Made by a program: the position numbers and the translations under genes
Shown here: piece after piece, positions 24,575 through 34,300 of the stretch
Layout of the letters: each line of letters opens with the position of its first letter
Position numbering within the stretch: the first letter of the stretch is position 1
The notes under the pieces: model-generated
Databases searched by the model: none
What the model was told of the DNA's origin: nothing
What the model saw: the letters and a program-made list of their open reading frames with translations, nothing else
Assembly: GCF_000469385.1 (NCBI RefSeq)
Contig: NZ_KI271295.1
Location: forward strand, 1 to 42,437
DNA length: 42,437 nucleotides
Reading direction: 5' to 3'
From: Leptotrichia sp. oral taxon 879 str. F0557
GTDB lineage: Bacteria > Fusobacteriota > Fusobacteriia > Fusobacteriales > Leptotrichiaceae

Positions 24575-25702
24575 ATGGTTAAAAATAAGGACAGATTTTT
24601 TAATTTTGATATTTTAAAATGTATTGCAATTAGTATGGTTTTATTTATTCATATTGTTGCAAGCGAGCTATATAATTATGGTAAAATATCTGGAAACAGA
24701 TGGATGATGGCAAATATTGCAGATTCATTTAGCAGAATGTGTGTGCCGATATTTGTTATGGTTAGTGGATTTTTTCTGTTGAGAAAAGAGGAGGATGTGA
24801 AAATATTTTTTAAAAAAAGATTTGCAAAAATTCTTCCTAAGTTTTTTGTATATTCTGTTATTTTTTTTATATTTACAATAATTTTTAAAGGTGTTAAAGA
24901 TAATGAATTATTTTCAGTTTTTTTTAGAAAATCAACTTATAAGACTATAATTTTGATTTTTTTCCAGAAAGAAAGTTATAATAATTTTTTTTCAAACTTT
25001 TTTCAAGGAAAAATTTACTATCATTTGTGGTATATTTATATGATATTGTCGCTTTATTTGATAACTCCGTTTTTACGAAAAGTTGTAGCAAAAATTGATA
25101 GAAAAAGTATTAATTATCTGATTTTTGTGTGGATAATATTTATGATTTTAGTACCATTTCTAAATGTGATTTTTAAGAAAAATATAAAAATATATTCTCC
25201 AGCTGGGCAATATGTCGGTTACTTCTTAATTGGCTATTTACTTGCAGAAAAGCCTTTGAATATGAAAAAATGGCAAAAATATACAGGTTTTTTAATAGCA
25301 GTGTCACTAACTGTCTTTTTAACATATATATTTACAAAATCAAGTGGAAAATTTTTTGACTATTTTTACGATTATCACTCAGTTAGTGTATTTGTAGCCA
25401 CAGTTTTTCTTTATGATTATATTGTAAATATTTTTGATGGAGAAAAAGTTTTAGGCAAAGTAAAAGGAATTATAAAGCCTGTATCAGCAAAAACTTATGA
25501 TATTTATTTAATTCATCCGATTTTTTTATTTTTTTGCGAAAGAATATTAAAGTCCAGAATGAATTATTTTTTATATATAATTATTACGTTTTTAATAGTA
25601 TTTTTACTATCATTTTTTACAAGTGAAATATTAGATAGAATATATAATTTTTTAGCTGGAATGAATAAATGGAGGGAGAAATATGGCGGAAAAAAAGACT
25701 AG
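24575..25702 (+). CDS. membrane acyltransferase (acyltransferase 3 family)
   Basis: A 375-aa integral membrane protein with about ten hydrophobic segments. The first segment has the family motif FDILKCIAISMVLFIHI, with the key His, and VPIFVMVSGFFLL follows. The C-terminal TYDIYLIHPIFLFF block is also typical. Relatives (OafA/WecH type) transfer acetyl or succinyl groups to surface polysaccharides or glycolipids. A GGAG site lies 11 nt before ATG 24575. It is the first gene after the integrative element, and its 3' end overlaps the next gene by 20 nt. The sugar transferase two genes on fits a surface-glycan role. Confidence 0.88.
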   Translation: MVKNKDRFFNFDILKCIAISMVLFIHIVASELYNYGKISGNRWMMANIADSFSRMCVPIFVMVSGFFLLRKEEDVKIFFKKRFAKILPKFFVYSVIFFIFTIIFKGVKDNELFSVFFRKSTYKTIILIFFQKESYNNFFSNFFQGKIYYHLWYIYMILSLYLITPFLRKVVAKIDRKSINYLIFVWIIFMILVPFLNVIFKKNIKIYSPAGQYVGYFLIGYLLAEKPLNMKKWQKYTGFLIAVSLTVFLTYIFTKSSGKFFDYFYDYHSVSVFVATVFLYDYIVNIFDGEKVLGKVKGIIKPVSAKTYDIYLIHPIFLFFCERILKSRMNYFLYIIITFLIVFLLSFFTSEILDRIYNFLAGMNKWREKYGGKKD

Positions 25703-27338
25703 AAATAGAAAGCCATTGCCAATAGGGGTGTCTGATTTTAAGGAAATTGTAGAAAATAATTATTATTATATTGATAAAACAAAGCTAATTGAAGATATTT
25801 TACATTACAGGGCAAAAGTAAACTTATTCACACGTCCAAGAAGATTTGGAAAAACCCTTAATATGTCAATGATTAAATATTTTTTTGATATAGAAAATAA
25901 AGAAGAAAACCGAAAATTATTTGAAGGATTAAGTATTTCTGAAAGTGAACAGATGCAGGAGCAGGGGCAATATCCTGTTATATATATAAGTTTTAGGAAC
26001 ATGGAAGAAGTTAGCTGGGAAAACTGTCTGAGTCAGATAAGAGACTTAATAAGAAATATTTATATAGAATTTAAGTATATAAGAAAAAAATTGGATGAAT
26101 TTGATTTGATGGATTTTAACAATATTTGTTTTAATAATGAAAATTCAAATTGGAAAGGCTCATTGAAAGCACTGACAAAATATTTGTATGAATATTATGG
26201 GAAAAAAGCTGTTGTGCTGATAGATGAATATGATACGCCGATAATTCAGGCTTATCAGGAGGGATATTATAAACAGGCAATTTCTTTTTTTAAGAAGTTT
26301 TGTGGAGATGCAATGAAGGATAATGAATATTTACAGTTTGGAATTATGACTGGAATATTGAGAATTGCAAAAGAAGGAATTTTTTCAGGATTAAATAATT
26401 TGAAAGTAAATAATATCTTTAGTGAAAAATATTCAGAGTATTATGGACTTACCGAAAATGAAGTTGTTGAGGCTGTGAAATATTATGGGCTGGAATATGA
26501 GATGGAAGATGTAAGGGAGTGGTATGACGGTTATCAGTTTGGAGAAACTGAAATTTATAATCCTTGGTCGATTATTAACTTTTTGGATGAAAAAAAATTA
26601 CGTCCTTATTGGATAGGCGTTTCAGGAAACAAGACAATATATGATTTATTAGGAAAAGCAGATAAAAAAGTAATAGAAGATTTGGAAAAACTTTTTGTGG
26701 GGAAAACGGTTTATAAGGCAATAAATGAGTATATGGAATATGTATTTAATGCAAGTGATATATGGGAATTATTTTTGTACAGCGGATATTTGACAACCGA
26801 TGGTGAGAAAAAGGGTGAACTCTATCCATTAAGGCTTCCAAATAAAGAAATACAGACTTTTTTTAGAAAAATTTTTATAGATAGATTTGTTGGAAATTAT
26901 ACACAGTTTTCAAATATTGTAGAGAATTTAAAAAATGGAAAAATAGAAGAGTTTGTAAAAGGGCTTCAAGACGAGATACTTTCCTCACTTAGTTATTTTG
27001 ACACGGAAAAAGATGAAAAGTATTACAAAATATTTTTAATTGGAATATTTATAATACTTGCAAATGACTATATTAGACTATCAGAAAGAGAAAGTGGCTA
27101 TGGAAGGGCAGATTTAGTTTTAGAACCTAAAAACAAAATAAATCCAGCGTATATATTTGAATTTAAAGTTGTAAATAATGAAGATGAACTGGAAAATTAT
27201 GCAAAAACTGGATTTGAGCAGATAAAAGAAAAAGAGTACGATGTGGAATTAAGAAATAGAGGAATAGACAAAATTGTCTGTGTTGGGCTTGCGTTTTATA
27301 GAAAAAAACTTAAAATGAAATATGAAATAATGAAGTAA
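25683..27338 (+). CDS. AAA-ATPase-like protein with PD-(D/E)XK nuclease domain
   Basis: A 551-aa protein of the AAA-ATPase_like / PDDEXK_9 family, expanded in many gut and oral anaerobes. The N-terminus is LPIGVSDFKEIVENNYYYIDK in two blocks (LPIGVSDFKEI, NYYYIDKTKLI). Then come the Walker A-like RPRRFGKT (51-58), Walker B VVLIDEYDTPI (about 178-188), and near the C-terminus YGRADLVLEP...YIFEFKV, the D...ExK nuclease core. Function is unproven; a mobile-element or defence role has been suggested for such proteins. ATG 25683 lies inside the acyltransferase gene with a strong GGAGGGAG site, so the two are coupled. Confidence 0.87.
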   Translation: MAEKKTRNRKPLPIGVSDFKEIVENNYYYIDKTKLIEDILHYRAKVNLFTRPRRFGKTLNMSMIKYFFDIENKEENRKLFEGLSISESEQMQEQGQYPVIYISFRNMEEVSWENCLSQIRDLIRNIYIEFKYIRKKLDEFDLMDFNNICFNNENSNWKGSLKALTKYLYEYYGKKAVVLIDEYDTPIIQAYQEGYYKQAISFFKKFCGDAMKDNEYLQFGIMTGILRIAKEGIFSGLNNLKVNNIFSEKYSEYYGLTENEVVEAVKYYGLEYEMEDVREWYDGYQFGETEIYNPWSIINFLDEKKLRPYWIGVSGNKTIYDLLGKADKKVIEDLEKLFVGKTVYKAINEYMEYVFNASDIWELFLYSGYLTTDGEKKGELYPLRLPNKEIQTFFRKIFIDRFVGNYTQFSNIVENLKNGKIEEFVKGLQDEILSSLSYFDTEKDEKYYKIFLIGIFIILANDYIRLSERESGYGRADLVLEPKNKINPAYIFEFKVVNNEDELENYAKTGFEQIKEKEYDVELRNRGIDKIVCVGLAFYRKKLKMKYEIMK

Positions 27339-28759: not shown

Positions 28760-28786
28760 GATAAAATTAAAAGTTGGAGGAGAAAG

Positions 28787-30475
28787 ATGGTAGAAATGAT
28801 AGAAATTAAGCAATATAGAAAATTGAAAGATATAACATTAAATTTTGTCAAAGGTATTAATATTATATCAGGAAGTAATGGAACTTGCAAAAGTTCCCTG
28901 CTATATATAATTAGTAATTCATTTCAGAAAATAACTAAAAATAACTTAAAAAATAAAGAATCAGTATCAGTTATTTCCAATATAAATAAATTGATGAATC
29001 CTAAAATAGAAAGTTTGACAAGAGGAGATGAAAAATATAATGATCCAGCACCTAATGTAAAAGGAGAATTGTACAAGTGTAAATATTTTGATAATGATAT
29101 GAAATTAGATTTTAGACGACACAATAGTGGAAGAGAAAATAAAGAGAAAAAAAGATTTTCAATAAGACCTAAGTATAAAAAAGGAAATAATGAAAAAATA
29201 CCTGCTATGCCTGTAATATATCTAGGACTTTTTAGATTATTTTCTTATGGAGAATTTCTGAATGATAAAGAAATAAAAAAAATTACTAAAAAATTACCAA
29301 AAAAATATCTTAATATTGTGACAAGAATATATAAGAATTTTACAAATATGGAAGTACTTTTTGATGAAGAAAATAATTATCATGGAATAAATATGGGGGG
29401 GATAAAGAAAAGAGGAAATTTTTCAACAACTTATGATGGTATAGATTCGAACACTATTTCTGCTGGGGAAGATAATTTATATATTATCTTAACAGCCTTA
29501 GTTTCTTTGAGATATTATTTTGAAAATGAAAATAAAAGTAGTATTTTATTAATTGATGAATTAGATGCGACTTTACATCCATCTTATCAAATAAGATTAT
29601 ATAAATTAATGAAAAAATATTCCAAAAATTATGAAATACAAATATTTTTTACAAGTCATAGCTTGAGTTTAATAGAATATGCGTTAGAAGACAAAGAAGA
29701 CAAAAAAGATTCTAAAGTTTTTTATTTTTTAGAAAATCCAAATGTGAGACTAATGGAAGATGTATCAATAAACAAAATAGGAATGTGGTTAAAAAATCAA
29801 TCAAGAATAGAAAATAATAAAAAGATACCAGTTTATACTGAGGATAAAGAAGCAAGGGAGTTTTTAGAATCTTTATTTAAATATTTAAAAAAACATTATA
29901 CTGTAGGTGATGTATTTAAATATTTTCATTTAGTTGATATAAATTTTTCATCGGAAATCCTAAAAAACTTATTTAAATATAAAGAAGTTAATATATCTCC
30001 AATTAATACAGGTTCTATTTGTATACTAGATGGAGATCAACAAGAAGAAAAAGCCTTGAGTTATAATATGACTTTTTTACCATCGGATGGCTTAAAATCA
30101 CCAGAAAATTTAATTTTTGATTATTCAATAAAATTATATAATGAAGGAAAGGAAGATTTTTGGAATCAAAATGAGGTAGAAAATTCAGGATTTACGACAG
30201 ATTATTTTAATGAAAATATAAAAAGTAAAATTGAAGAAAATAGAAATAAAATAGAAGAATTAAAAAAACAAAATGAATCAACACATGGTAAGGAAAGAGA
30301 ATTTAATAAAAAATTGTTTAATGATAAATTGGATTTTTTTAGGTTAGTAATAGAATATTGGATTGAAAATAATGAAAAGGAAGTAGATAAATTTTATGAA
30401 AATTTAAAAATCTTATTTAAAAAGGTATCATCATATCACAAAATTGACTCAAATTTATGGAAAGAAAAAGAATAG
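28787..30475 (+). CDS. OLD-like ATPase with C-terminal TOPRIM-like domain
   Basis: A 562-aa protein. The N-terminal ABC-type ATPase has Walker A GSNGTCKSS (29-37), signature-like ISAGEDNLYIIL, Walker B ILLIDELDATLHP (D257, E258) and FFTSHSLSLIEYAL as switch region. The C-terminal part has YTEDKEAREFLESLF (Glu352) and GSICILDGDQQ (Asp415, Asp417), the E...DxD pattern of TOPRIM nucleases, then PSDGLKSPENLIFDY and a helical tail. This order is that of OLD-family overcoming-lysogenization nucleases and fused PARIS-like proteins. The adenine methylase follows 12 nt later. Very high A+T and AAA/ATA codon use compared with smc suggest transfer. TOPRIM assignment is by motif only. Confidence 0.8.
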   Translation: MVEMIEIKQYRKLKDITLNFVKGINIISGSNGTCKSSLLYIISNSFQKITKNNLKNKESVSVISNINKLMNPKIESLTRGDEKYNDPAPNVKGELYKCKYFDNDMKLDFRRHNSGRENKEKKRFSIRPKYKKGNNEKIPAMPVIYLGLFRLFSYGEFLNDKEIKKITKKLPKKYLNIVTRIYKNFTNMEVLFDEENNYHGINMGGIKKRGNFSTTYDGIDSNTISAGEDNLYIILTALVSLRYYFENENKSSILLIDELDATLHPSYQIRLYKLMKKYSKNYEIQIFFTSHSLSLIEYALEDKEDKKDSKVFYFLENPNVRLMEDVSINKIGMWLKNQSRIENNKKIPVYTEDKEAREFLESLFKYLKKHYTVGDVFKYFHLVDINFSSEILKNLFKYKEVNISPINTGSICILDGDQQEEKALSYNMTFLPSDGLKSPENLIFDYSIKLYNEGKEDFWNQNEVENSGFTTDYFNENIKSKIEENRNKIEELKKQNESTHGKEREFNKKLFNDKLDFFRLVIEYWIENNEKEVDKFYENLKILFKKVSSYHKIDSNLWKEKE

Positions 30476-30487
30476 GAGATGATATAA

Positions 30488-31354
30488 ATGATAAACATTA
30501 TATCTCCACTAAGATACCCTGGTGGTAAAGCTAAAGTATATAATATTATAATTTCTCTTTTTGAAAAAAATGATATTAGAAATCCTGTATATATAGAGCC
30601 TTTTGCTGGAGGAGCAGGTTTAGCATTATTGTTGCTAAAAAAAGAAAAAGTAAAAAAACTGGTACTTAATGATATAGATAAAGGTATTTATTCTTTTTGG
30701 TATTGCGTTTTAAATCATACAGAAAAGTTTTGTAATATAATAGAAAATATTGAAATTTCTCTTCTTGAGCGAGAGAATCAAAAAAAAATATATATAAATA
30801 AAGAAAATTTGAATTTGTTGGTGGAAGAAAATATTTTAAAATTAGGTGTAGCTACTTTTTATTTAAATAGAGTGAATAGATCTGGGATTTTGAAAGCAGG
30901 TGTAATAGGTGGTAATTTGCAAAATGGAAATTATAAAATGGATTGTAGATTTAATAAAAATAAATTGATAAAGCAAATAAAAGAAATAGGTAGATTAAAA
31001 GATAAAATAGAGTTTTATAATTTGGATGTTTTAGAATTTCAGAAAAATATAATAAGCAAAATAAAAAGAGAAAAATTTATATTTTTTGATCCGCCATATT
31101 ATAAAAAAGGCCCTGAATTATATACAAATTTTTATAATCATAAAAATCATTTGGAACTTTATGAAACTATAAGAAAAATAACTAAAAATTGGATTGTTAC
31201 TTATGATAATTGTGAAGAAATAAAAAAAATTTATAAAAAATTTGATTTTGTAGAATTTGATATAAATTATTCTTTAGAAAATAAAATGAAAGCCAAAGAA
31301 ATTATGATATTTAGCAAGAATATAAAAAATCATGATATTTTTATTATGAAATAA
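30488..31354 (+). CDS. D12-class N6-adenine DNA methyltransferase
   Basis: A 288-aa Dam/DpnM-class enzyme that methylates adenine N6 in a short DNA target using SAM. Motifs: ISPLRYPGGKAK at the N-terminus (motif X), EPFAGGAGLAL (about 37-47, motif I), LNRVNRSGILKAGVIGG (126-142) and catalytic FFDPPYY (199-205, motif IV). Target specificity is not readable here. GGAG lies just before the ATG, overlapping the stop region of the OLD-like gene, so the two are one operon. Shared extreme A+T content supports joint acquisition. A stand-alone methylase next to an OLD-like nuclease suggests a self/non-self marking system. Confidence 0.92.
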   Translation: MINIISPLRYPGGKAKVYNIIISLFEKNDIRNPVYIEPFAGGAGLALLLLKKEKVKKLVLNDIDKGIYSFWYCVLNHTEKFCNIIENIEISLLERENQKKIYINKENLNLLVEENILKLGVATFYLNRVNRSGILKAGVIGGNLQNGNYKMDCRFNKNKLIKQIKEIGRLKDKIEFYNLDVLEFQKNIISKIKREKFIFFDPPYYKKGPELYTNFYNHKNHLELYETIRKITKNWIVTYDNCEEIKKIYKKFDFVEFDINYSLENKMKAKEIMIFSKNIKNHDIFIMK

Positions 31355-31376
31355 ATCGGAAGAAAAGAGGAAACAA

Positions 31377-34300
31377 GTGTACTTAAAAGCATTGGAGCTG
31401 ACAGGGTTTAAATCGTTTGCAAATAGGACTGTTGTGGAGTTTGACAACGGGATTACTTCGATTGTCGGGCCTAACGGGAGTGGAAAGAGTAATATTTTGG
31501 ATGCGATTTTGTGGGTTTTGGGAGAACAGAGTTATAAAAATATACGGGCAAAAGAGAGTTCGGATATTATTTTTTCTGGCGGGAAGAATAAGAAGCCAAA
31601 GTCTATGGCGGAAGTCAGTCTTATTATTGATAACGGAGATAGATATCTGGATGTAGATTTTTCAGAGGTTAAGATTACTCGAAGGATTTTTAAGACGGGG
31701 GAAAATGAATATCTTATAAATAATAAGAAATCTAGACTTAAAGATATTCATAATCTTTTTATGGATACTGGAATTGGAAAGCAGGCTTATTCTATAATTG
31801 GACAAGGGCGTGTAGAGAGAATTATTGGATCTTCTCCAAAGGAATTAAAGGAAATTATTGAAGAGGCGGCGGGAGTAAAGAGAGCTAAAATTGAAAAGGA
31901 AGAGTCTGAGAAAAAGCTGCAGGACTTGAAAAATGAAATTGAAAAAATTGAATATGTAGAAAAAGATTTAAAAAAACGTGTTGATTATTTAAAAAATGAG
32001 CAGGAAAAAGCTAGACTTTTTAAAGCATACACAAAAAAAATTGATGTGCAGCGATTTATGATTCTTGAATACAATGTCAATGAAAAAACTTCATTAAAAT
32101 ATGAATATGAGGAGAAAAGTCAGGAAATAAAGGAAGAACTGGAAAAAAATGAAAATAATTTTTCAGAAAAGCAGGTTGAACTTGAAAAGACCAATGAAAT
32201 AAGAAAAGAATTGTACGAAAATCTGGAAAATCAGAAAAATGAAAACAGCGAAAACTTTAAAAATATGGAAATTCTGAAAGAAGAATATTCAAAACTTGTA
32301 AATCAAAACTCTAACTTAGAAACTGAGGCCAATGAAAAAAATAAAAGAAAAAGTATTTTGGAAAAAGATATTACTGAAAAAAAAGAACTCTTGAATAATT
32401 CCAGAAATGAGCTTGATTTGATAACAAGGGAGTTGGCTGTGAAGGAAGAAGAAAAGGATAAATGGGAGGCTAAAGTTGGAGAACTCAAGCATAAATGTGA
32501 TAAAATTACAATTGAATTAAAAGAACGAACGCAAAAGAATTCTAATTTTGAAGTGGATAAGATAAAAGTCGCCGGAGAAAATGAAGATCTTGAAAAAAGA
32601 GTTCAAGGGGCAAAAAATGAAAATAAAAGACAAATTGCCGAAAGAAATGATGTAGAAGCTGAGTTTAATAAAATAAATAAGGAAAAACAGACATTTGAAA
32701 TTCAAAAGTCAGAAAAGGAAAAAGAAAAGCTTGAAAAAGAGCTGAAAATAAAAAAACTTAACGAAAAGATTGATGAACTTAGAAAAGAATATGCTGAAAT
32801 AAATAAGCAAAAAAATGAAATTAGTTATAAACTTGAAAGTTTTGAAGTTAAGCATAAGGCGATAGCTAGTGCAATTGAAAAAAATGAGACTTTTAACCGA
32901 AGTATAAAACATATTTTGAATGAAAAAATTGATGGTGTAATTGGAGCCTTTGTTAACTTGATTGATGTTCCAGCGGGATTTGAGGAAGCAATACAGACTT
33001 TGTCTGGTGGAATGTTTCAGGATATTGTAGTAAGAGATAGTGAAATTGGAAAAAAATGTATTGAAATTCTGAAAGACAGAAAACTTGGAAGAGCTTCGTT
33101 TTTGCCAATTGAAAATATTCGAATTTCAAGAATGAACGAATTTTTGCCAAAAATTGAACAAGTTTCACAGCAAAAAAGTTTTCAAAATAAAATGGCTCAA
33201 GATGAAGTTCAAAATATTATTTTAAATACAAAGGGGAAAAATGGAATTATTGACTTTGCAAGAAATATTGTAAAAGTTGATAAGAAATTTTTGAATGAAG
33301 ATGTAGAAAAGGTTATTCAGTTTGTATATGGAAATTCAGTTGTTGTGGAAAGTCTGGAAGTTGGGACAGAACTTTTGAAAAAAGGATTTAACAACAGAAT
33401 TGTTACACTTGAAGGAGATATTATCACTTCTCGTGGGAGAATGACAGGAGGGCATTCATTTAAGGGTAAAGATGAAATTCTCGAGCGAAAAAAGGAATTG
33501 AAACATCTGGAAAGTGAAATTGAGAAAAATAAAAAGAGCTTTGAGGAATTTGAGAAAAAATTATCGGAAATAGTTTTAGAAGCTGAAAAAATTGAAGCAG
33601 AAAGAACGGAAGCAGAAAAATTATTTGAAAAATTTAAAAATGAATATCAGGAATTTAATGAAAATTATGACGATTTTAGCATAAAATTTAACCGAAAACA
33701 GCGAGAAATCAATACTTTGAACTATGAAATTTCTGAAAATGAGAAATTTATTTTGGAAAAAGAAAAAAAAATAAAAGAAAATAAAGAACTAATTCAGAAT
33801 ATTGAAAAATATATTGAAGAAAATAATCTGAAAATGCAAAATCTGAATGAAGAACTTAAAAAATTTGAAAATATTGATGAATTTATTCAGAAATTGAATG
33901 AGACGGATAGAGATTACGAAATTTTGAAGGTTCGAACTGATAACAATAAAAATCGTTTTTCAGAAATTGAGTCTGATTACAAGAAACTTTTAAGTGAAAA
34001 GGCAGAACTGGATGAATTTGAGAAGAAAAGAGAGATGCTCAGGAATGAACTTTCTGAAAAACTTTCAGATAAGAAGACTGAAATTGAAAAAAATGAAAAA
34101 ATTAATGAAAATATATTGAATGAAATCAAGGAATTTGAGAAAAAAATACAGGAAATTGAAGTAAAAGAAAGAAAGTTAATTAGTGAAATTAAAGATATCG
34201 AAGTAAAAATACTGGAAAATAAAAATAATTATGAAAAAATTGTTGAAAAAATTACACGTAATGAAAGTGAGCTTGAATTTCAAATAGCGGAATTTAAGGA

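Follow-up and report, generated by a model that had tools for sequence, protein, structure and literature searches.

Directly upstream of smc in Leptotrichia sp. oral taxon 879 str. F0557 we find a conserved mobile unit of two genes, an ABC-type ATPase of the OLD/HEC-04 kind with a probably TOPRIM-like C-terminal domain and a D12-class N6-adenine methyltransferase, which on balance we read from the sequence as a horizontally moving, restriction-like anti-phage module. The pair comes from contig C15 in a genome of approximately 2.4 Mb and falls within the 42,437 nucleotides analysed here (the window). Both genes are on the forward strand, the ATPase at 28787-30475 (562 residues) and the methylase at 30488-31354 (288 residues). 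There are 27 nucleotides between the preceding sugar transferase gene and the ATPase, 12 between the two genes of the pair and 22 between the methylase and smc. The positions and gaps in a preliminary description of this DNA agree exactly with the open reading frames, and its proposal of a defence unit made of an OLD-like ATPase-nuclease and a D12 methylase is still the reading that fits best, the adjacency being conserved and the activity predicted.

The N-terminal part of the first protein has all the elements of an ABC ATPase. The Walker A motif (GSNGTCKS, 28871-28894) is in frame and conserved in 79 homologues, the signature-like SAGEDN (29459-29476) contains the invariant Ser225 and Gly227, and in the Walker B motif (LLIDE, 29546-29560) Ile256, Asp257 and Glu258 are 100% invariant in the same 79 sequences. 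His291 of the H-loop is also in frame. Pfam matches AAA_15, AAA_21 and SMC_N to the protein, which over its full length belongs to PHROG 3940 (phrog_3940, E = 2.5e-102), a family of unknown function. With PADLOC there are ATPase-level matches to PtuA, GajA, AriA and others, those to AriA being weak and covering the ATPase part only. The AlphaFold2 model, made from 67 sequences, has a mean pLDDT of 85.9 and shows no long coiled coil. Its best matches in the PDB are the OLD protein of Retron-Eco8, TsOLD and GajA (E from 2e-12 to 8e-11) over some 490-660 columns. As the TM-scores are about 0.3 and the rmsd is large, perhaps due to the domain orientation, these matches are taken as a pointer to the family only.

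Glu352, Asp415 and Asp417, which had been singled out in the preliminary description, are in frame and, together with Asp353, are 100% invariant in the 79 homologues, the identity of which goes down to around 20-25%. Glu352-Asp353 (29840-29845) and Asp415-Gly-Asp417 (30029-30037) make up the two TOPRIM-like motifs. When the C-terminal domain was modelled alone (pLDDT 92.5, pTM 0.89), Glu15, corresponding to Glu352, was placed where the first strand ends (model residues 10-14) and Asp78 and Asp80, corresponding to Asp415 and Asp417, where a later strand does (residues 74-77), which we take to be the TOPRIM arrangement. The alignment with a protein of the HEC-04 family extends through these motifs (hhalign Prob 99.5, E = 2.8e-23), with LCEDEAAENIL of HEC-04 aligned to VYTEDKEAREFL of the window protein and FILDSDQ to CILDGDQ, such that ED pairs with ED and DSD with DGD. 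In PADLOC the isolated domain had just two matches, to HEC-04 (E = 4.8e-8) and, weakly, to AbiEi, and 21 of 67 C-terminal domains from the family match the HEC-04 model.

The TOPRIM-like nature of the C-terminus therefore stands on the invariant residues, the order of the strands and the homology to HEC-04, and not on the other comparisons that were made. Pfam OLD-like_TOPRIM does not recognise the domain, and its profile alignment by hhalign with the OLD TOPRIM domains of 30 relatives was not significant. The comparison of a predicted structure with the TOPRIM domains of OLD and AriB, which the preliminary description had suggested, did not confirm the fold either: a Foldseek search of the PDB with the isolated domain found no significant match (best E = 0.6), a 306-residue chain of the PARIS complex appearing at rank 7 with an E of 0.96. 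HEC-04, also called IbfA, is described as an ABC-ATPase plus TOPRIM protein with experimentally demonstrated anti-phage activity (PMC12111858) and, given this together with the alignment, we refer to the domain as TOPRIM-like, probably a divergent member. Judged by its sequence the protein probably cuts DNA or RNA.

The second protein had been assigned to the D12-class N6-adenine methylases, and this is borne out by Pfam (MethyltransfD12, E = 5e-22) and by two motifs that are invariant in 14 relatives, PLRYPGGK near the N-terminus (30506-30529) and the catalytic DPPY (31088-31099). PADLOC places it in the PD-lambda-5_B family, the PD-Lambda-5_B model matching residues 1-283 of 288 with an E of 1e-110. 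Within the proposed module it would be the component that marks self DNA and may serve as a hub.

The pair is an insertion that reaches up to the start codon of smc, because in three relatives from the same genus (G009, G001 and G004) the interval between the sugar transferase and smc is empty and only 26-86 nucleotides long. Comparison with these empty sites defines a left junction at 28760-28786, the 27 nucleotides from the sugar transferase stop to the ATPase start, and a right junction at 31355-31376, the 22 nucleotides up to smc. The smc start codon is GTG in the window and ATG in the relatives with the empty site. As had been noted, the pair is richer in A+T than smc: its GC content of 22.3% is the lowest of any 2568-bp stretch in the window (mean 30.5%, standard deviation 2.6%), compared with 29.8% for smc and 30.5% for the sugar transferase. 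With the empty sites as the real evidence for insertion, the low GC serves as a supporting point only. A promoter scan gave nothing better than shuffled sequence.

Most genomes of the genus do not carry the pair at this site. In G011, G008, G006, G003 and G010 the interval holds small unrelated open reading frames, and at four loci (L037, L039, L042 and L045) it contains at least one related frame of about 200 residues, some of these having lipoprotein-like starts, so the site is variable within the genus. G010 does carry a pair, with an ATPase 61-66% and a methylase 60% identical to those of the window, but beside groEL. A pair is found at the same site as in the window in G019, from another genus, and in Fusobacterium vincentii it is directly 5' of smc with a frameshifted ATPase gene. 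Altogether three of the four fusobacterial copies, spread over two families (the window, G019 and F. vincentii; loci L025 and L010), are directly 5' of smc. At 25683-27338 of the window there is in addition a protein with AAA-ATPase_like and PDDEXK_9 domains, adjoining surface-sugar genes, which is probably not part of the unit since it is kept in several genomes of the same genus.

The preliminary description would have been undermined if homologues of the two genes were rarely adjacent. The opposite was found: they are nearly always neighbours, in the same order. Viral contigs were scanned with an alignment query and the ATPases clustered at 80% identity, giving 46 clusters, in 37 of which the methylase is directly downstream on the same strand with a gap of 4-88 nucleotides. 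Of the other nine, five have a methylase nearby in another arrangement, two are cut off where the contig ends and in two there is none. The alignment was built from methylase-linked members and may bias such scans somewhat; searches with a single sequence are free of that bias. With the window ATPase alone as the query, seven of eight matches in the plasmid collection adjoin a methylase of the PD-lambda-5_B family, as do all phage matches apart from one short unannotated record. Against genome contigs the lone sequence gave no match, being too divergent, so the alignment was required. In three evenly drawn genome samples (outside the centre genomes) the ATPase was present in 2 of 368, 8 of 397 and 6 of 394 genomes. 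A methylase lay within 2 kb in both genomes of the first sample, again with centre genomes excluded, and in 11 of the 14 from the later samples (8/8 in the second and 3/6 in the third), the three misses being a weak ATPase match, a broken ATPase and an intact ATPase with no methylase nearby.

The pair is found in Fusobacteriota, Bacillota, Bacteroidota and Proteobacteria, and there are copies carried as prophage or plasmid cargo beside integrase or recombinase genes. It is present in 85 of 5,426 complete genomes of E. coli; in strain JJ1886 it is located between a prophage integrase and glaH, and strain Ec-RL2-1X carries a prophage pair too. An ATPase locus can in some cases do without the methylase, as intact ATPases without a nearby methylase occur in the one sampled genome mentioned above and in two prophage lineages where the active centre is preserved. 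At a series of prophage loci (L151-L157 and L164) the ATPase has an N-terminal extension, an intact Glu and DxD and no adjacent methylase, and in the L151-type loci it comes right after a gene for a CI-type repressor.

Related loci exchange the ATPase while retaining the methylase. Over 68 paired loci the Spearman correlation between ATPase identity and methylase identity is 0.23 (the maximum from 500 permutations was 0.13), and in 52 of the 68 the closest relative of the ATPase and that of the methylase are in different loci. Where the methylases are at least 65% identical, the ATPases are less than 40% identical in 26 of 43 locus pairs. In the clearest comparison, that of L185 with L208, the methylases are 91% and the ATPases 23% identical, with the DNA homology starting 1-2 nucleotides after the ATPase stop; between L173 and L177 there is a break close to the same point. 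The same can be seen at one chromosomal site. Between the window and G019 the methylases are 85% identical and the ATPases about 30% over the part that aligns, and the DNA is 80.7% identical over a tract that begins 15 nucleotides short of the ATPase stop, spans the methylase and extends into the 5' part of smc (window 30461-32074), as against only 67.7% in the later part of smc. The higher identity of this tract suggests homologous recombination across both the defence gene for the methylase and the essential smc.

These exchanges bear on how the pair could work. The preliminary description suggested that the nuclease may attack unmarked DNA while the methylase protects host sites. The frequent swapping of effectors speaks against a nuclease with a matched site recognition of its own. 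For a nuclease that itself recognised the methylated site, replacement by a protein of 23% identity beside an untouched methylase should be lethal or useless, so the swaps suggest that recognition resides in the methylase or that the effector senses something different. As ATPases with little resemblance to each other replace one another next to methylases that hardly differ, the ATPase probably has no matched site recognition. The swaps thus weigh against a pair of enzymes with matching site specificity and favour a methylase hub to which different effectors can be attached. In three to four loci a broken ATPase accompanies an intact methylase and the reverse occurs in none. As proof that the methylase protects the host this asymmetry was rejected, 3-4 against 0 being underpowered; by length alone all four breaks would fall in the longer gene about one time in five.

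The relatives of the methylase are mostly paired with a ParB-like PD-lambda-5_A protein rather than with the ATPase. Of the 80 loci collected from genomes by way of the methylase, 46 have a PD-lambda-5_A-like neighbour and 21 an ATPase of the HEC-04-like family; several carry both, eight have something else and five are at contig edges. Nine ATPase clusters are in loci that have both the methylase and a PD-lambda-5_A-like gene. At L134:3870-7440 a GmrSD_N-HNH protein, a methylase and an ABC-ATPase-TOPRIM protein form a run of three genes. At five further methylase loci (L067, L078, L079, L105 and L141) there is a set comprising an SLFN_AlbA_2 protein, a HerA-like (DUF87) protein of about 650-680 residues and a weakly NurA-like protein, the domains having been tested in L067 and several of the others being matched by similar lengths and starts; this is possibly a further defence module linked to the methylase. 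We put forward tentatively, as an idea that may well not hold, that one sequence-specific adenine methylase is the recognition hub for interchangeable ABC-ATPase-TOPRIM, ParB-like, GmrSD-HNH and HerA-NurA effectors. Were this so, the nuclease would need no site recognition and could be replaced gene for gene with self-protection kept, and a single modular scheme would take in PD-lambda-5 and the HEC-04-like proteins along with several cargo genes of prophages.

In the module as we envisage it, the methylase would act on its own sites in the host DNA, thereby supplying the information that distinguishes self from non-self. The ABC-ATPase would dimerise, probably through its ATPase heads, and take as its input the methylase or the state of its modification. 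On meeting unmodified or foreign DNA the E...DxD centre of the C-terminal domain would cut nucleic acid, with the ATPase, lacking a matched site recognition of its own, acting as an exchangeable effector plugged into the methylase hub. The alternative of a guard or abortive system, in which the methylase keeps the ATPase-TOPRIM protein inactive or is monitored by it, we consider unlikely on the whole. Inhibition of the methylase by a phage, or another trigger, would then set off cleavage of RNA or DNA, whether of the host or of the phage, and bring the infection to a halt, the methylase being a sensor or antitoxin and not a restriction partner. There are precedents, in that the sensor of Ocr in PARIS is AriA and the TOPRIM component AriB acts as a tRNA nuclease, as stated in PMC12839542, and HEC-04/IbfA, the closest relative, lowers phage yield with no methylase (PMC12111858). 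Swappable effectors and the existence of stand-alone ATPases are in keeping with it as well. However, it leaves unexplained why the tie should be to a methylase with an intact active site, rather than to some other guarded protein, unless methylation itself matters.

The location of many copies in prophages beside an integrase, with P2 old as an example of a prophage cargo gene, raises the question of whether the two are merely neighbours, the methylase shielding the DNA of the element from host restriction and the ATPase providing superinfection exclusion in the manner of P2 Old, with no biochemical system between them. The weak correlation of identities would agree with this, but the order is fixed, the spacing is held to 4-88 nucleotides and separation is rare; moreover, some copies, that of the window included, are on plasmids or chromosomes at a distance from phage genes, and the usual partners of the methylase family are of defence type. 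Taken together these make such a division of labour improbable. A role in chromosome maintenance, in which an SMC-like ATPase would join the methylase in a housekeeping unit tied to smc, is brought to mind by the position of the three fusobacterial copies, and we regard it as very improbable indeed, since most genomes of the genus lack the pair here, one has it beside groEL, elsewhere it sits in phages and plasmids, and a long coiled coil is absent from the ATPase model. The restriction-like module remains the reading that we favour.

Neither half of the pair is new on sequence grounds, the methylase being of the PD-lambda-5_B family and the ATPase a relative of HEC-04/IbfA. Of the earlier suggestion of an undescribed system, what stands is the combination: PADLOC v2 has no dedicated model for the window ATPase, and we know of no named system that joins it to the methylase among the PADLOC v2 models seen or in the accessible literature. 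An earlier mention is possible, as PMC12839542 cites the survey of ABC-ATPase conflict systems by Krishnan et al. 2020 for OLD-ABC neighbourhoods resembling restriction-modification loci. The passages searched in a paper on the A. baumannii methylome describe a different restriction-modification system (PMC10287943). OLD-type effectors are widespread in defence, the described classes either standing alone or having as partner a helicase, a retron or a TOPRIM protein encoded separately, and a methylase-linked class with gene-for-gene swaps would offer a direct way of asking where the information on self and non-self resides.

Like a type II restriction-modification system the pair places a putative nuclease beside a methylase, but here the nuclease is an ABC-ATPase and the swaps are ill-suited to matched site recognition. 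With OLD classes 1-4 (P2 Old, GajA of Gabija, retron I-B/Eco8 and PARIS) it shares an ABC-ATPase followed by an E...DxD domain, though none of these is given a methylase partner in the review consulted (PMC10568477), and the C-terminal domain of the window protein differs in falling outside Pfam OLD-like_TOPRIM and in having no significant fold match alone. As in Gabija, an OLD-like ATPase-nuclease is the first gene of a two-gene unit; GajB, however, is a UvrD-like helicase, for which there is no gene between the flanking genes of the window, and the partner here is the methylase. PARIS consists of the AriA ATPase and a separate or fused AriB TOPRIM with no methylase, whereas the second gene of the window is one. 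HEC-04/IbfA is homologous to the window ATPase along both the ATPase and the TOPRIM regions, at a low overall identity, but is a single gene (PMC12111858), whereas the family of the window ATPase nearly always adjoins a methylase. PD-lambda-5 is an experimentally validated anti-phage system of E. coli (Vassallo et al, 2022; PMC9519451). That the pair is simply PD-lambda-5 was rejected, as the A protein of that system is ParB-like, without a Pfam ATPase domain, and no such gene is beside the window methylase, the partner of which is the ABC-ATPase, these two being all that the interval between the flanking genes contains; PD-Lambda-5_A is not among the PADLOC families shown for that ATPase, and one PD-Lambda-5_A model run over the genome found nothing. 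What the two have in common is a methylase of the same family, the B component, in a similar prophage-borne layout of two genes.
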